Origin: Deltaproteobacteria bacterium RIFOXYD12_FULL_55_16
GTDB taxonomy: Bacteria; Desulfobacterota; Desulfobulbia; Desulfobulbales; Desulfurivibrionaceae
Assembly: GCA_001799255.1 (NCBI GenBank)
Contig: MGTC01000062.1
Coordinates: 1 to 38,319 of the forward strand
Reading direction: 5' to 3'
Length of the DNA: 38,319 nucleotides
Part shown: positions 13,469-35,410 of the stretch, one piece after another
Layout: every line of letters starts with the position of its first letter
Position numbering within the stretch: position 1 is the first letter of the stretch
The notes under the pieces: generated by a model
Database searches by the model: none
Told to the model about the DNA's origin: nothing
Seen by the model: only the letters and a program-made list of their open reading frames with translations
Made by a program: the position numbers and the translations under genes

Positions 13469-14709
13469 ATGACCAAGTCTACCCCAACAGCTCTTTTACA
13501 ACAAGGAGACAATGTCGTTGACCCGCTCACGAAAATGTTGCGCCGTGGAGCTCGAAAGCTGATCGCCCAGGCCGTGGATGCCGAGTTGCGAGTCTTTCCA
13601 CTTTGCAGCTCGAAGACGGGCGCAAAGCCGTGGTTCGTAACGGTTATCTTCCCACCCGTGTGGTGCAGACCGGCATTGGCGATGTGGAAATTAAGGTGCC
13701 CAAGGTGCGTGATCGCAGTGGCCGGGGAAACAGATTCAACAGCGCTTTGCTGCCGCCCTACCTAAAGCGGGCGCGCAGTGTGGAAGAGTTGCTGCCCTGG
13801 CTGTATCTCAAGGGGATTTTCACTGGAGACTACCAGGAGGCGCTTGCCGCCTTGCTCGGAGATCAGGCCAAAGGGTTATCGGCCAATACCATTTCACGCC
13901 TCAAGTCCGGTTGGCTGAATGAACACACCACTTGGCGCCGTCGAAATCTCTCCGGCGCACGCTATGTCTATTGGTGGGTGGACGGCATCTATAGCAACGT
14001 GCGCATGGATGACCGGTTTTGCCTGCTGGTAATCGATAGGGTCACCGAGCAGGGATGCAAAGAACTCGTGGCTGTCGAAGATGGTTATCGGGAGTCAAGC
14101 GACAGCGGGTATGAGTTGCTCAGTGACTTGCGTAGCCGTGGCCTTGAGATAGGCCCCGAGTTGGCGACAGGAGACGGAGCACTGGGTTTTTGGAAGGCGC
14201 TGACCAAAGTCTATCCGAAAACCCGTCACCAGCGCTGCTGGGTGCATAAGACCGGCAATGTACTGAACAAGCTTCCCAAGGCTGTCCAGCCCAAGGCCAA
14301 AGCCGCCCTGCACGACATCTGGATGGCAGAAACCAGAGAGAATGCTCACCGAGCCTTCGACGGCATGCTTGATCGTTTCAAGAGCAAATACCCAAAGGCC
14401 ATGGAATGTCTGGCTAAAGATCGGGATGAACTGCTGGTCTTCTATGATTTTCCGGCAGAGCATTGGGTGCATATACGAACTACTAACCCGATTGAGTCGG
14501 CTTTTTCCATAGTCAGGTTGCGCACCAAAAGAACACGCGGCTGCGGTTCCCGGGATACGACCCTGGCAATGGTTTACAAATTGTTGCAAAGCGCGCAAAA
14601 ACGCTGGAAGCGAATCAAGGGATTCCGCCTGTTGGCCGAGATCGTCACAGGCGTAAAATTCAGAAACGGAGAAAGAGTGTCTGGTCAATCAGACAGGAAG
14701 GCCGCCTGA
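13469..14709 (+). pseudogene. IS256-family transposase with frameshift
   Basis: This is a Mutator-type (IS256 family) transposase split into two frames. The first frame begins at ATG 13469, behind ACAGGAG, and reads normally to D-A-E-L-R-V-F near 13596. The family sequence then continues in another frame as Q-L-E-D-G-R-K-A-V-V-R-N-G-Y-L-P and runs to TGA at 14709. Compared with relatives, several codons appear deleted at about 13591-13605. The catalytic residues survive: Asp in W-W-V-D-G-I-Y, Asp in A-T-G-D-G-A-L, and Glu in N-P-I-E-S-A-F. Without programmed frameshifting it should be inactive. Possible ends share CCTGT: TCCTGTGTTAATT near 13416 and, inverted, CTCCTGTAGAAGA near 14743; no clear target duplication is seen. 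Confidence 0.85.
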
Positions 14710-14921: not shown

Positions 14922-14961
14922 TAAAAGAAAAGGGGTTACAGGAAATATCCTGTAACCCCTT
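14922..14961 (-). terminator. Intrinsic terminator of tRNA-Arg
   Basis: A perfect 14-bp stem (14930-14943 with 14948-14961, four-base loop) lies 8 bp beyond the tRNA 3' end. On the minus strand it is followed by a T-rich stretch, TTCTTTTAT. It has the position and form expected of a strong Rho-independent terminator. Confidence 0.85.
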
Positions 14962-14969
14962 GATTTTAT

Positions 14970-15046
14970 TGGTGCGCCCGGAGGGATTCGAACCCCCGAC
15001 TCCCGGCTTCGAAGGCCGATGCTCTATCCAGCTGAGCTACAGGCGC
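14970..15046 (-). tRNA. tRNA-Arg (anticodon UCG)
   Basis: A 77-nt gene including an encoded CCA end. The acceptor stem GCGCCUG pairs with CGGGCGC, with one G-U pair. The D arm is GCUC/GAGC, and the anticodon stem UCGGC/GCCGG encloses the loop C-U-U-C-G-A-A, giving anticodon UCG. The T arm contains the canonical G-G-U-U-C-G-A-A-U-C loop. Its 3' end points toward the accessory region, so it could have served as an integration site. I found no second copy of its 3' end and no integrase gene in the window. Confidence 0.97.
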
Positions 15047-15049
15047 ATA

Positions 15050-15158
15050 GTAAGCGATCACAGGGTACGACATCTGCTTTGTTATCGGCCTGTTCGCATA
15101 CTATTTGTATGGCTCTCAGACCTCTGCCTCGCATCTGCCGCACCCTGTGATCGCTTAC
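15050..15158. repeat. Structured repeat element, copy 1
   Basis: A perfect 17-bp inverted repeat (15050-15066 and 15142-15158, beginning GTAA and ending TTAC) encloses a core of about 75 bp. The core holds ACATCTGCTTTGT (15070-15082), ATCGGCCTG, an inner hairpin CATAC/GTATG (15097-15101 and 15107-15111), CAGACCTC (15117-15124) and GCATCTGC (15131-15138). The same core recurs, inverted, at 31704-31809 with different but still complementary stems. It lies between the tRNA-Arg gene and the end of bioA. The function is unknown: it could be a structured RNA or a non-autonomous mobile element. Confidence 0.75.
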
Positions 15159-30813: not shown

Positions 30814-31652
30814 TGCAGATCCCTTTTGTAGATCTTTTCGGTCGAAAACAGCGTTTCAAAGTGCTCTCCCATGGCCGAGGGCCGCAGGGACTCCTTGGAG
30901 CCAAGCCAGAGAAAGCCGCCGGGGCACAGACTTTCATAAAATGTCTGAAAAATTCGCTCCTGAAGTTCCCGGTTGAAATAGATCAGGACATTGCGGCAGA
31001 CCACCAGTTGCACCTCGCTGAAGACGCTGTCGGTGACCAGATTATGATCGGCAAAAACGATTCTGGTTTTCAGCCAGTTTTTGAGGATCACCGCATCGTT
31101 GTCCGCCGTGTAGTAGTCGGAAAATGATTCCCTGCCCCCGCTTTTCTGGTAATTGGCGGTAAACTGCCGCACCTGATCCAGGGAGTAAATGCCCTCCTTG
31201 GCTTTTTTAAGGGCTATTTGGTTGAAATCGGTGGCGTAAATCTGGCACCGTCCCAGCAGGCCTTCCTCGTGCAGGAGAATGGCCATGGAATAGACCTCCT
31301 CACCGGTGGCGCAGCCCGCGTGCCAGATCTTGACAAAGGGCCAGGTCTTGAGTCGGGAAACCACCTCGGTTCTGATCTGCAGATAGATGTCCGGATCGCG
31401 GAACATCTCGGTAACGTTAATCGACAGATCCCGCAGCAGCAATTCAAAAAAACTCCGGTCGTGAAGAACCCGATGCAGCATGGCCCCCATATCCGGCAGC
31501 GCGGAAGAATTCAGCCGGTGGCGCAGACGGCGGCGCAGATGGGCCAGGGAATAGTCGCGGAAATCATAGCCGTAGCGTTTGAACATCCCTTCCAGCAGCA
31601 AGGTGATCTCCAGGTTTTCAACTTCCTTGTCGTCATCGGTCGTGTTTGTCAT
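30810..31652 (-). CDS. CheR-type protein methyltransferase
   Basis: A 280-residue S-adenosylmethionine-dependent glutamate O-methyltransferase. The N-terminal helical domain is followed by N-V-T-E-M-F-R-D, the typical CheR entry motif, and the cofactor loop H-A-G-C-A-T-G-E-E-V-Y-S. Late conserved features include C-R-N-V-L-I-Y-F and F-L-W-L-G-S-K-E-S-L. It is coupled to the receiver-less CheB by a 4-bp overlap and lies downstream of a large hybrid kinase; such sets often modify signalling proteins other than chemoreceptors. The ATG at 31652 lacks a clear ribosome site; a later start is possible. Confidence 0.92.
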   Translation of the reverse strand: MTNTTDDDKEVENLEITLLLEGMFKRYGYDFRDYSLAHLRRRLRHRLNSSALPDMGAMLHRVLHDRSFFELLLRDLSINVTEMFRDPDIYLQIRTEVVSRLKTWPFVKIWHAGCATGEEVYSMAILLHEEGLLGRCQIYATDFNQIALKKAKEGIYSLDQVRQFTANYQKSGGRESFSDYYTADNDAVILKNWLKTRIVFADHNLVTDSVFSEVQLVVCRNVLIYFNRELQERIFQTFYESLCPGGFLWLGSKESLRPSAMGEHFETLFSTEKIYKRDLQ

Positions 31653-31703
31653 TGGCTAACTATACCATACTAAAGACGGAAAATAGGCTGAAACCCCCAA
31701 ACT

Positions 31704-31809
31704 GTAACTGTTCAGCAGTGCCGCAGATGCTAGGAAGAGGTCTGCGAAGTGTGCTATTGCACATGAGCAGGCCGATGACAAAGCAGATGTGGTGCTGCTG
31801 GACAGTTAC
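31704..31809. repeat. Structured repeat element, copy 2
   Basis: Arms at 31704-31718 and 31795-31809 pair over 15 positions with a single G-U-type mismatch on the plus strand. The core, read on the minus strand, repeats that of copy 1: ACATCTGCTTTGT, ATCGGCCTG, CAGACCTC, GCATCTGC. The inner hairpin is TGTGC/GCACA (31750-31754 and 31759-31763) where copy 1 has CATAC/GTATG. It begins just beyond the hybrid kinase stop codon and fills the gap to cheR. Confidence 0.75.
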
Positions 31810-31810
31810 T

Positions 31811-34800
31811 TCATTTGTAAAGCCAGACCCGCAGCAGAGAGACAAGTTTTTCCGCATCAATCGGCTTGGCCAGGTAATCGCTGGCTCCGGCCTGCAGGCA
31901 TTTGTCCCGGTCGCCCCGCATGGCCTTGGCGGTGAGGGCGATGATCGGCAGGCTATGCAGCCGGGGATCGCTTCTGATCCGGCGCGTCGCTTCGTAGCCG
32001 TCCATTTCCGGCATCATGATATCCATCAGCACCAGGTCGATCTCGGGGTGAGAGGCAAGTTTTTCCAGAGACTCCAGGCCATTTTTGGCCACCACGATGG
32101 CCAGGCCCTGTTCCTCCAGAACACTGGAGAGGGCGAAGACGTTGCGCATATCATCATCCACCACCAGGATGGTTCGGCCATGGAAGGATGATTCCCGATC
32201 GTGAAGGGTATTCAGAATCGCCTGTTGCTCCTTGGGCAGGTTTTTCTCCACCCGGTGGAGAAAGAGGGTGGTTTCATCAAGGAGCCGCTCTGGAGATCGG
32301 GCGCCCTTGATAATGATGGAGTCGGCGTACTGCTGGAGCCGCTCTTCCTCATCATGATCGAGTTCCTTGCCCGTGTAAATAACCACCGGAATCCGGGCGA
32401 TTTCCGGATTTTCCTTGATTCTGGCCAAGAGGTCAAAACCGGACATATCCCCCAGGCCCAGATCCAGGATGATGCAGTCAAAATGTTCGGCCAGCAGCAG
32501 CCGGTAAGCGTCCTCGCCGGTGGCCGCCTCCTGGGCGATGACGTCGCCGTTGCCAATCAGAGCCTTGATCGCCTGACGCTGAACCAGATCGTCTTCCACG
32601 ATCAGCAGCTTTTTTACCGGCCTTTCCACCAGTTTTTCGATTCGGCCAAAAACCTGGTCAAGTTTTTCCACGCTGACCGGCTTGGTCAGGTAGCCGATCG
32701 CGCCCAGTTGCATGATATCGGCGGACTGGTCGCTGGCCGAAATGAACTGAACCGGGATATGGCGGGTTTCCGGGTTGTTCTTGAGCCGCTCCAGCACCTC
32801 CCGGCCATTAATGCCGGGCAGGCCCATGTCAAGCAGCACCGCGCTGGGCCGGTAATAGTCAGCCAGATGGAGGCCGGTTTCTCCGTCTTCGGCAACCAGG
32901 CCCTTGTAGCCCTTTTCTCTGGCCAGATTAAGCAGCAGGGAAGCAAAGACTGGATCATCCTCGATAATGAGCAGGCTCTTATTGTCGCGCTTAAGCAGGC
33001 GGCGGTCATCGCGAACCAGATGACCGGGGGCCTCATCCGGTGGCGGCCCGTCCTGCTCCGGCCTGGCAGCCGGGGCAGGCTGTTCCTTAACCTTGTCCGA
33101 TGCTACCCGCCGAATTTTTTTCGGGGCCAGGGGAACAGACACGGCGGTGCCTCCCACCCTGGCCCCCTTGAAGCGCTCCGGCAGCCAGAGGGTAAAGGCG
33201 CTGCCCATGCCTTCCTCGCTTTCCACGGTCAGGACGCCGCCCAGGAACCGGGCCAGTTCGCGGGAGATGGAAAGCCCCAGGCCGGTGCCGCCGAATTTGC
33301 GGCTGGTAGTTCCGTCCGCCTGCTTGAAGGCCTCGAAAACAATCTCCAGCTTGTCGGCGGGAATGCCGATCCCGCTGTCGCTTACCCGGAAAAAAATGGT
33401 CTCTTCCGGATTGGCGGCCGCCAATTCCGGAGGCATGGCCTCGGCGGCGGGCCGCCCGACGGTGAAATCAACCGCGCCCTGCTCGGTAAACTTGAAGGCG
33501 TTGGAAAGCAGATTTTTCAACACCTGGCGCAGGCGGGCCTCATCGGTGAAAATCATCGCCGGGGCGTTCTCCTCCCGCACCAGGGCCAGGCCGATCTTTT
33601 TCTCTTCAGCCAGGTGCCGGAAAGGCGCAAGCAACGAAGCAAGCATGTTGTCCAGGGGAATTTCTTCCGGATTGATCTCCATCCGGCCCGCCTCGATCTT
33701 GGAGAGATCCAGCACCTCGTTAATCAGGTTAAGCAGATCGGAACCGGAATGGTGGATGGTGGAGGCGAACTCAATCTGTCTGGGCAGCAGGTTGGTCTCC
33801 TTGTTGGCGGCCAGCAACTGGGAGAGGATGAGGATGCTGTTCAAGGGGGTGCGGAGTTCGTGGCTCATGTTGGCCAGAAATTCCGACTTGTAACGGCCAG
33901 AGACCTCCAGAGCCAGGGCCTTCTCTTCCAGCTCCCGCCGCACTCTGACCAGGCCCCGGTTAGCGGTCTCGATCTCCTCATTTTTGGCGAACAGCGCCTT
34001 GGAGCGTTCTTCCAGTTCTTCGTTGGAGACCCGCAATTCCTCCTGCTGGGTCTGCAATTGCTCCTCTGAAGCAGAAAGGGTGCGGGCCTGCTCCTGTAAC
34101 TCCTCGTTGGTCTGCTGCAACTCCTCCTGCTGAACCTGAAGTCTTTCTGATTGTTCCTGGGTGGTTTCCAGGAGCCGGGCCAGTTCCAGGCGGGCTGCGG
34201 TGGTATGAATCGCCACCCCGATATTCTCCATCACCAGGTCAAGCAGTTGCTCCTCTCTGGGGGTGAAGGGCCGGTGCCGACCCAGTTCAATCACGGCCAG
34301 GAGCTGGTTTTCAAAATAAACCGGGGCGACCACCACCCCGGCGGCGGCAGTCTCTCCCAGGCCGGAGGAGATTTTCAGGTAGCCGGGTGGCAGATCGTTG
34401 ATCACCAGGGCCTTGCCCTGATGCAGCGCCCGACCGATTATGCCATGGTCATGGCCGATCAGCGGACGGGCCGTCACCGCTTCGTCCGCTCCGTAAGCCT
34501 TGAGCAGTCGCAGGGCGTTATGGCTTTCAGCCAGATAAAAGGCCGCAGCCTGGGCGTCAATCACCTCGACCAGCACCTCCAGGATATTGTGGGCCAGGGT
34601 GAGCAGGTCATGCTGGCCGTGGAGCCGGTCGCTCACTGCGGCCGCACCCTCGGCCAGCCAGCGGTCTACCTCCTGTTTGCCGCCCAGATCGCGAAGGGTG
34701 GCGGCCATCCGGTTCAAGGCGTGACTCAATCGGTCATCCTCGGAGCGGGGCGGGATGATGATTTCATAGTTGCCCTGGGAAACAGCCTCGGCCATCTCCA

Positions 34801-35410
34801 CGACCTTCATTTCGTCGCGGATATCCACGATGTATTCCACCGCTCCGATGATTCGGCCATCATCATCCTTGAGCGGGGCGGCGGTATAGCGAAAATTGGT
34901 TTCGCCCTTAGGGGTGACGATGATGTTTTCGCCGGTGAGCACCTTGTTCTGGATCATGGCCCGGGCCACCATGCACCTGTTGGAATTGCAATCTCTGGTG
35001 CGGAGCAGCTCGTGGCATTTCTTGCCGATGCACTGGCCTACGGCCAGGCGGGCGGCCCGCGCCCCGGCCTGGTTGATGAAGCGAAGGATGAGATCGCAAT
35101 CCACCACCAGGATCGGGGTGGGAATAGCGTGAAGATAACGAACCAGCTCAGCGGCCTGAAGATTGGCCTGACGCAGGTCATTGTTCAGGGTTTGCTGCCA
35201 GGCCGCCTGTTGCGCGGCCTCCACCCGGAGCCTCTGGAGCAGCCTGCGGACTATCAGCATCGTTGCCCCAGAGGCGGCCAGAGCGGTACCCGGCCAGATC
35301 AGCCAGGGCGAGCCGACCGCTGCCGAGGCCGCCAGTCCAGCCAGGAGCAGGGTAATTGCCATTGAGGCAAAGATCGCCAGCAACAGCCGGCGTTCCAGAG
35401 AAATATCCAT
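31811..35410 (-). CDS. Hybrid sensor histidine kinase with PAS, GAF and three receivers
   Basis: A 1199-residue signalling protein. Two N-terminal membrane segments (about 8-55) enclose little periplasmic sequence. Then come a PAS domain (about 90-200, with several Cys near 127-146), a HAMP-like stretch (about 200-250), a GAF domain (about 265-400) and a long Gln/Glu-rich coiled coil (about 405-500). The kinase core has H517 in S-H-E-L-R-T-P, the N-box at about 634-640, D-S-G-I-G-I-P and G-G-T-G-L-G-L. After a Pro-rich linker there are three receivers with acceptors D861, D983 and D1130. Receiver 2 lacks the usual K-P switch, having I-K-G-A instead. It leads the row with cheR, cheB and the cyclase. 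The ligand is unknown. Confidence 0.93.
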   Translation of the reverse strand: MDISLERRLLLAIFASMAITLLLAGLAASAAVGSPWLIWPGTALAASGATMLIVRRLLQRLRVEAAQQAAWQQTLNNDLRQANLQAAELVRYLHAIPTPILVVDCDLILRFINQAGARAARLAVGQCIGKKCHELLRTRDCNSNRCMVARAMIQNKVLTGENIIVTPKGETNFRYTAAPLKDDDGRIIGAVEYIVDIRDEMKVVEMAEAVSQGNYEIIIPPRSEDDRLSHALNRMAATLRDLGGKQEVDRWLAEGAAAVSDRLHGQHDLLTLAHNILEVLVEVIDAQAAAFYLAESHNALRLLKAYGADEAVTARPLIGHDHGIIGRALHQGKALVINDLPPGYLKISSGLGETAAAGVVVAPVYFENQLLAVIELGRHRPFTPREEQLLDLVMENIGVAIHTTAARLELARLLETTQEQSERLQVQQEELQQTNEELQEQARTLSASEEQLQTQQEELRVSNEELEERSKALFAKNEEIETANRGLVRVRRELEEKALALEVSGRYKSEFLANMSHELRTPLNSILILSQLLAANKETNLLPRQIEFASTIHHSGSDLLNLINEVLDLSKIEAGRMEINPEEIPLDNMLASLLAPFRHLAEEKKIGLALVREENAPAMIFTDEARLRQVLKNLLSNAFKFTEQGAVDFTVGRPAAEAMPPELAAANPEETIFFRVSDSGIGIPADKLEIVFEAFKQADGTTSRKFGGTGLGLSISRELARFLGGVLTVESEEGMGSAFTLWLPERFKGARVGGTAVSVPLAPKKIRRVASDKVKEQPAPAARPEQDGPPPDEAPGHLVRDDRRLLKRDNKSLLIIEDDPVFASLLLNLAREKGYKGLVAEDGETGLHLADYYRPSAVLLDMGLPGINGREVLERLKNNPETRHIPVQFISASDQSADIMQLGAIGYLTKPVSVEKLDQVFGRIEKLVERPVKKLLIVEDDLVQRQAIKALIGNGDVIAQEAATGEDAYRLLLAEHFDCIILDLGLGDMSGFDLLARIKENPEIARIPVVIYTGKELDHDEEERLQQYADSIIIKGARSPERLLDETTLFLHRVEKNLPKEQQAILNTLHDRESSFHGRTILVVDDDMRNVFALSSVLEEQGLAIVVAKNGLESLEKLASHPEIDLVLMDIMMPEMDGYEATRRIRSDPRLHSLPIIALTAKAMRGDRDKCLQAGASDYLAKPIDAEKLVSLLRVWLYK

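Follow-up and report, generated by a model that had tools for sequence, protein, structure and literature searches.

A short structured element that occurs twice in the 38,319-nucleotide stretch of DNA analysed here (the window) belongs to a dispersed family of short non-autonomous transposons (MITEs), and we consider it likely that this family, which has IS66-like ends, encodes on one of its strands a structured RNA maintained by selection. Descriptions of MITEs usually centre on their DNA ends. In this family a single element offers both DNA-constrained ends and RNA-constrained arms, and the reason why a transposon keeps an RNA fold becomes directly testable. Because the family is large and has no match in Rfam, a single experiment could account for many intergenic regions.

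Copies and distribution of the element

The two copies in the window lie at 15050-15158 and 31704-31809, where the first-pass annotation had placed them. The core words said to be common to both are present, and their arms are indeed unlike except for GTAA and TTAC at the tips. Counting by eye, we also find the outer-stem pairs as reported, 17 of 17 in copy 1 and, in copy 2, 14 with an additional wobble. The inner hairpin, too, is altered yet still paired (CATAC/GTATG versus TGTGC/GCACA). The description as a two-copy element, however, was an understatement. In the genome from which the window derives, BLAST with copy 1 returns 42 matches and with copy 2 returns 41 (40 candidate places were scored for each), and R1, a covariance model built from 42 copies, finds at least 65 matches (66 candidates scored).

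A covariance-model search of the host and its relatives had been proposed beforehand as a check, and it yielded many further copies with covarying stems and the core. Matches to R1 occur in 52 of 58 relatives, with a total of at least about 1,640 over 58 genomes, and each of the 17 genomes of the host genus carries from 12 to at least 66. Across the order, 156 of 257 genomes, representing 55 of 69 genera, contain matches, as do 36 of 395 genomes sampled across the phylum, a count that includes the host genome and eight others of the order. The exact 22-nt core is present in at least 108 stretches of named contigs; among the 80 listed, the titles are mostly Desulfobulbaceae or Deltaproteobacteria MAG, with a few Proteobacteria and one Kiritimatiellae. 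This last contig (L135, core at 958-979) reflects either transfer from phylum to phylum or a binning error. Searches of phage and plasmid collections with copy 1, of plasmids with a 151-bp copy and of viral contigs with the exact core gave no matches. Some of the distant hits lack the usual tips: 17 of the 29 matched stretches have neither GTAA nor TTAC, and 15 of these 17 fall in genomes listed merely as belonging to the same phylum. Hairpins with the same core and tipless arms are seen in L276, L277, L279, L282-L284 and L286-L289, all from same-phylum genomes, where they begin at about position 1501 (in L279 at 1414 and 47), and these hairpins are perhaps carried on other transposon ends.

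The statement that the element matches no known family also holds for Rfam 15, whose covariance models detect only a tRNA in the window and give no match at gathering score there or in 10 element loci, so that membership of an Rfam 15 family was rejected. Those 10 loci produced six matches with E values from 0.13 to 3.7, every one under the gathering score. Two of the six, both to mir-15, cover the element in L092 and score 19.4 and 18.5 bits where 57.3 would be needed. We found no published description of this family in a literature search of main-text passages. The multicopy nucleotide sequences of Geobacter and Pelobacter are similarly intergenic, some are palindromic and some are called predicted RNAs in the passages that describe them (PMC2700814, PMC2996986, PMC3543383). 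For one of these families, similar sequences are said to occur in Desulfotalea psychrophila (PMC2700814), but the central palindrome quoted in that description is missing, by eye, from both window copies. Overlap with the Geobacter multicopy sequences, or earlier cataloguing among them, is possible, the comparison being one of descriptions.

Transposon ends and target duplications

The unit reported at first often extends by about 45 nt to a second terminus, which repeats the left one imperfectly in inverted orientation, and the whole extended unit is bounded by 8-bp direct repeats. The intact layout runs from the left terminus through the hairpin, an inner inverted copy of the left terminus and about 45 nt to the right terminus, and most intact copies measure about 150-165 nt. 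The original span thus stands as a hairpin unit, but the mobile unit is mostly longer. An outer right terminus is recognisable in 61 of 152 distinct copies. The 8-mers flanking these 61 copies are identical at 8/8 positions in 26, at 7/8 in 14, at 6/8 in 7 and at fewer in 14, compared with expectations of 0.40, 0.36 and 0.89 copies for the first three classes when flanks are re-dealt. The 91 copies without a recognisable outer terminus, together with the 14 of 61 that match at fewer than 6/8 positions, count against the explanation that we favour.

The remaining features are also those of a MITE. Copies are numerous and dispersed, as both BLAST and the covariance model indicate, and the 48 copies with 7/8 or 8/8 duplications are 106-286 nt long, too small to hold a transposase gene: 32 measure 151-164 nt, 12 measure 179-286 nt and contain internal inserts, and 4 measure 106-110 nt. 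The termini are inverted repeats, with 564 of 676 cells matching over the first 13 positions of the left and right ends in 52 copies picked by their duplications and TTAC ends. In L045, L047, L048, L049, L050, L052 and L054, the region of the inner hairpin or its loop contains extra inserted sequence; these copies retain their ends and in most cases 7/8 or 8/8 duplications. Four copies consist of the hairpin only and have duplications of their own (L039, L068 and L194 at 7/8, L258 at 8/8), where about 0.08 would be expected. This count leaves out L103 (6/8), L201 and L273 (8/8), longer units in which the outer end had been mistaken for the inner arm, as well as L125, L248 and L259, which are hairpin-only copies at 6/8. 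Because hairpin-only copies carry their own duplications, it is probable that the inner arm is usable as an alternative transposon end.

Copy 2 retains traces of this organisation. Its extension (31656-31703, plus strand) has, as judged by eye, a decayed outer terminus, reading CTAACTATACCATACTA where intact relatives have GTAACTATCCAGCTTA and no longer beginning with G. On its two sides are a probable left target duplication, GTCATTGG (31648-31655), and a probable right one, TTCATTTG (31810-31817), which by eye are identical at 6/8 positions. The first-pass annotation had named, as an outcome that would count against it, arms that are merely host palindromes entered by the core. This proved not to be the case, since arms and core move together between the 8-bp target duplications.

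Both the GTAA...TTAC tips and the 8-bp duplications fit the IS66 family. Insertion sequences of this family have termini that start with GTAA and generate 8-bp duplications, and their published ends, GTAAGCGTCCGGCG... and GTAACCGTCCGGGCA, beginning GTAAGCG or GTAACCG in the relevant passages of PMC12888890, resemble the arms of the element. Among the loci that we scanned, four with an IS66 transposase (L210, L215, L226 and L227) have GTAA ends and 8/8 duplications, which are the termini and duplication expected of elements mobilised by IS66. An end of the MITE type, GTAACTATCCAGCT, was found in the IS66 loci L215 and L223, and variants one and two letters off in L220 and L225; L220, L223 and L225 hold IS66 fragments only. 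An IS66 locus with a matching end shares a genome with the family in two instances, L215 in a genome with 22 matches (G048) and L223 in one with 51 (G052). Unlike these insertion sequences, our element is too small for a transposase gene, and a loose core pattern gave only chance-like matches in the IS66 loci, where the RNA core was not seen.

The distribution of IS66 is less straightforward. The transposase domain (PF03050) was detected in 18 of 58 relatives, and these 18 genomes span from 0 to at least 66 R1 matches, four of them having none, so the presence of IS66 does not track copy number. Within the host genus it was found in 0 of 17 genomes, the host included, and an IS66 element that was lost, transient or plasmid-borne, or else another transposase, has to be assumed there, which weighs against the explanation that we favour. 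Of the other transposases considered as mobilisers, DDE_Tnp_1 (10 of 17 genomes of the genus) and DDE_Tnp_1_2 (4 of 17) were rejected because their loci showed no GTAA ends accompanied by an 8-bp duplication. Mutator-type transposases (PF00872) are present in 5 of the 17.

These ends also bear on the suggestion that the element is either a non-coding RNA or a recombination site folded as a single strand. The second part of that suggestion, in the form of an attC-like site or a REP/IS200-type substrate, now seems very improbable. A long imperfect hairpin would suit it, a G.T bias would likewise favour one strand of single-stranded DNA, and the host genome has two Y1 transposase genes. However, a DDE transposase that works on double-stranded DNA would fit the 8-bp duplications and the GTAA termini, and HUH/Y1 elements are not known to leave a duplication. 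REP sequences of the REP/RAYT (REPIN) system are tipped with GTAG, depend on a Y1 (RAYT) transposase and are not known to duplicate their targets; the GTAA tips and the duplications of our element led us to reject membership of that group, and the duplications to set aside an attC/integron site. The RNA reading is the one that fits better.

RNA fold and strand asymmetry

Judged from the aligned sequences, the fold is RNA-like, strand-specific and maintained as RNA. The RNA-sense strand is the one opposite to the CATCTGCTTTGT strand, that is, minus for copy 1 and plus for copy 2. Its hairpin has an outer stem, some 19-20 pairs long, that includes a tandem U.G/G.U. Inside this lies a helix with tandem G.A mismatches (AGAU/AGAU); further inward come a second step, of tandem G.A or of Watson-Crick pairs, then a stem and a hairpin that varies. 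In copy 1 (hairpin unit 15050-15158, minus strand), anchored parsing places the 5′ arm of the outer stem, which is the inner arm of the DNA element, at 15139-15158 and the 3′ arm, which is the left terminus of the DNA element, at 15050-15070, the two forming inverted repeat I1; the tandem G.A helix, supported also by the pair tally, has GCAGAUGC (15131-15138) as its 5′ side and GCAGAUG (15071-15077) as its 3′ side. The corresponding parts of copy 2 (hairpin unit 31704-31809, plus strand), obtained in the same way, are a 5′ arm at 31704-31722, GCAGAUGC at 31723-31730, GCAGAUG at 31783-31789 and a 3′ arm, again the left terminus, at 31790-31809. R1 scores copy 1 at 115.9 bits on the minus strand versus 44.9 on the plus strand, and copy 2 at 106.7 bits on the plus strand. 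The respective folds, at -63.9 kcal/mol (z = -10.78) and -68.5 kcal/mol (z = -10.87), were equalled in stability by none of 200 dinucleotide shuffles in either case.

Selection for structure, proposed from two copies, is supported by the covarying stems of many. In alignment A1 (42 sequences, 44 pairs), 85.9% of cells are paired versus 72.8% in shuffles, 30 pairs change on both sides versus 17.1, and the covariation score is 0.423 versus 0.174 when shuffled and at most 0.121 when slid; none of 500 shuffles attained any of the observed values. Each of columns 5 to 14 contains between three and five types of standard pair. The last three pairs proposed below the inner stem are weak; of the 42 sequences, 12 are paired at columns 45-68 and 14 at columns 46-67. 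A second alignment, A2, was made by fitting 35 matches to the model, of which 29 are distant hits, two are the window copies, two are on the opposite strand and the others are L255 and L257. It is 95.3% paired with a score of 0.705, versus 68.3% and 0.219 in controls. Covariation beyond controls is thus found here as in structured non-coding RNAs.

The core, rightly reported as shared and fixed, had seemed unpaired, but it pairs with itself through tandem G.A mismatches. In A1, CAGAUGC/GCAGAUG forms a helix in which columns 24-90 and 25-89 have normal pairing in 0 and 1 of 42 sequences and the remaining core pairs do so in 41 or 42. The second tandem G.A step (columns 35-36), AGAGG/CCGAU, is swapped for AUCGG/CCGAU in 3 of 42 sequences and for AGCGG/CCGCU in 2. 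Both sides of the core contain AGAT in 107 of the 129 near copies and in 25 of the 29 distant hits.

The two strands differ in a manner expected of RNA. When copies are folded singly, the RNA-sense strand gives the lower energy in 128 of 129, and RNAalifold yields -59.3 for it versus -23.9 for the opposite strand, from an alignment whose arms are partly out of register. Over the outer stems of 125 copies (the 129 found, less 2 that were not parsed and 2 of odd arm length), 2008 cells are Watson-Crick, 332 G.U, 25 A.C and 57 other; leaving aside the two tandem U.G positions, these numbers become 1973, 121, 25 and 53. The 129 copies were selected by an arm-complementarity filter, one that treats G.U and A.C equally. 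We also assembled 111 copies by the core only, of which 102 could be scored and 9 had no second anchor or lay too close to an end. In this set, 91.4% of 20 arm positions are paired versus 73.0% when arms are swapped between copies, the cells that are not Watson-Crick comprise 310 G.U, 38 A.C and 138 other, and at least 18 positions are paired in 86 of 102 copies, with 60 distinct left-arm 13-mers. The excess of G.U over A.C bears out the earlier hint, taken from a single wobble, that the plus strand is the RNA sense at copy 2.

Pairing of the outer arms is by itself weak evidence for RNA, because the arms double as transposon ends, and their complementarity alone could be explained by transposase binding. 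We therefore took 52 copies whose duplications match at 6/8 or better and compared two pairs of ends in them, using 13 positions common to both comparisons. The left arm against the inner arm gives 628 Watson-Crick, 37 G.U, 7 A.C and 4 other cells; the left arm against the outer right end gives 564, 24, 27 and 61. The contrast in the ratio of G.U to A.C has a Fisher p of 2e-4, calculated on cells that are not independent. A strand preference in the inner pair, and none in ends that are alike as DNA, points to an RNA constraint on the inner pair.

Two further explanations can be weighed against these results. The first is that the family is an ordinary MITE with no RNA function, the arms being ends for transposase binding and the remainder a conserved DNA core. 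The GTAA/TTAC tips on inner and outer arms alike, the 8-bp duplications and the apparent ability of hairpin-only units to move alone would all agree with this. Nevertheless, we regard it as improbable, given that the G.U skew of the inner pair is absent from the outer pair of ends, that tandem U.G and G.A mismatches are retained, that the inner stems, which are not termini, covary, and that the RNA-sense fold is the lower one in almost every copy. The second is that mutation itself produces near-perfect arms, by template switching at a quasi-palindrome that rewrites one arm from the other. Such correction is known in bacterial palindromes, and the compensating changes would come free. However, it would erase the tandem U.G/G.U and the tandem G.A, both of which most copies keep, and no preference for G.U over A.C would be expected. 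Passive correction of this kind is disfavoured by the retained mismatches, and we give it only a very small chance. A MITE that encodes a selected RNA remains the reading that we prefer.

Genomic setting and possible roles

At the DNA level, the element moves between its GTAA...TTAC termini and creates an 8-bp target duplication, with a transposase of the IS66 (DDE) type presumably provided in trans. Whenever an end sequence changed, the inner arm would be expected to change along with it, since the transcript would still have to fold. It is possible, although we propose it tentatively from sequence features, that the RNA-sense strand gives rise to a small RNA whose tandem-G.A core is bound by a protein that favours the element and not the neighbouring genes. 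This is the least certain step of our explanation; the benefit of such binding might lie in stability, copy control or transposition. Equally tentative is a wider possibility, namely that the element is a mobile RNA gene. It would then belong to a family of small RNAs that has its own binding protein and spreads in Desulfobacterota on the ends of different transposons. The outer stem would then be remade at each change of carrier, and the tipless-arm hairpins with the same core would be the same RNA on other vehicles.

The closest analogues are MITEs with hairpin transcripts. Correia, ERIC, BOX and QMITE1/2 elements are likewise short, non-autonomous, multi-copy and intergenic, their transcripts can form stable hairpins, and QMITEs are reported to yield small RNAs (PMC10969869). 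In contrast to these, our family has varied arms that covary around one fixed RNA core, strand-specific G.U pairs and tandem G.A mismatches, features that go unmentioned in the sections of PMC10969869 on those elements. The Chunjie MITE of Geobacter uraniireducens is also present between genes in many copies, including one within an operon, but it is 235 bp at full length according to the account in PMC10969869, the description on which our comparison is based.

An alternative to a small RNA that serves the element is that the RNA-sense hairpin, transcribed together with adjacent genes, acts in cis as an element for RNase III or for stability and, from its place between cistrons, alters mRNA processing. 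Cutting of Correia transcripts by RNase III and an effect of ERIC involving RNase E have been reported (in the passages of PMC10969869 on these elements), none of 113 copies lies inside a called ORF, and 58 of 100 copies are within 15 nt of a stop codon compared with 8.5% of 2160 random intergenic points, a figure that is inflated because GTAA supplies a TAA and the gene caller was simple. The location of copy 2 at an operon-like junction would also suit a cis-acting role. However, where both neighbours are co-directional, their mRNA would carry the CATCTG strand, which folds more weakly, for 43 copies and the RNA-sense strand for 21 (p = 0.008), whereas selection on mRNA would be expected to concern whichever strand is transcribed in most cases. 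We therefore consider a cis-acting element unlikely and prefer the element-serving small RNA, itself a tentative choice. The same orientation bias, which places the RNA-sense strand antisense to co-directional neighbours in most cases, also counts against our own explanation.

Copy 2 is bordered by a sensor kinase gene (31811-35410), at its stop codon, and by cheR, at its start codon. Its left duplication overlaps the start codon of the CheR gene (31650-31652), its right duplication overlaps the stop codon of the sensor kinase (31811-31813), and ATGA is present on the minus strand in both of the flanking 8-mers (by eye, 6/8 alike). Hence the insertion appears to have split an ATGA stop-start overlap of the kinase and cheR genes, which suggests that each gene was left with its own copy of the ATGA and neither was broken. 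Elsewhere, 23 of 48 insertion sites have an open frame that extends more than 60 nt past both sides, these frames being counted from stop to stop and not as genes, and some insertions may interrupt genes.

In RNA sense, copy 1 is followed after 3 nt by a tRNA-Arg gene on the same strand (14970-15158, minus strand); if the two are co-transcribed, the hairpin would fall in the 5′ leader of the tRNA. A search of the surroundings of copy 1 revealed no sigma-70-like promoter, another point against our explanation. Closeness to tRNA genes is not general, because ARAGORN detects a tRNA gene in only 4 of 60 sources (the window, L116, L131 and L160) and few are near copies: besides the window, the gene in L116 is within about 200 nt of a copy and that in L160 about 240 nt from one. 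A gene for a Mutator-type (PF00872) transposase (13603-14709, plus strand) is located near the tRNA-Arg gene and copy 1, and a terminator-like hairpin, present on both strands, lies between the transposase gene and the tRNA gene (14930-14961). Among 50 diverse copies, two features recur in the RNA-sense flank that precedes the hairpin (for example 31694-31703 in the window): a leader with a weak consensus resembling CCCNAACT and, about 21-24 nt upstream, a stretch rich in A.
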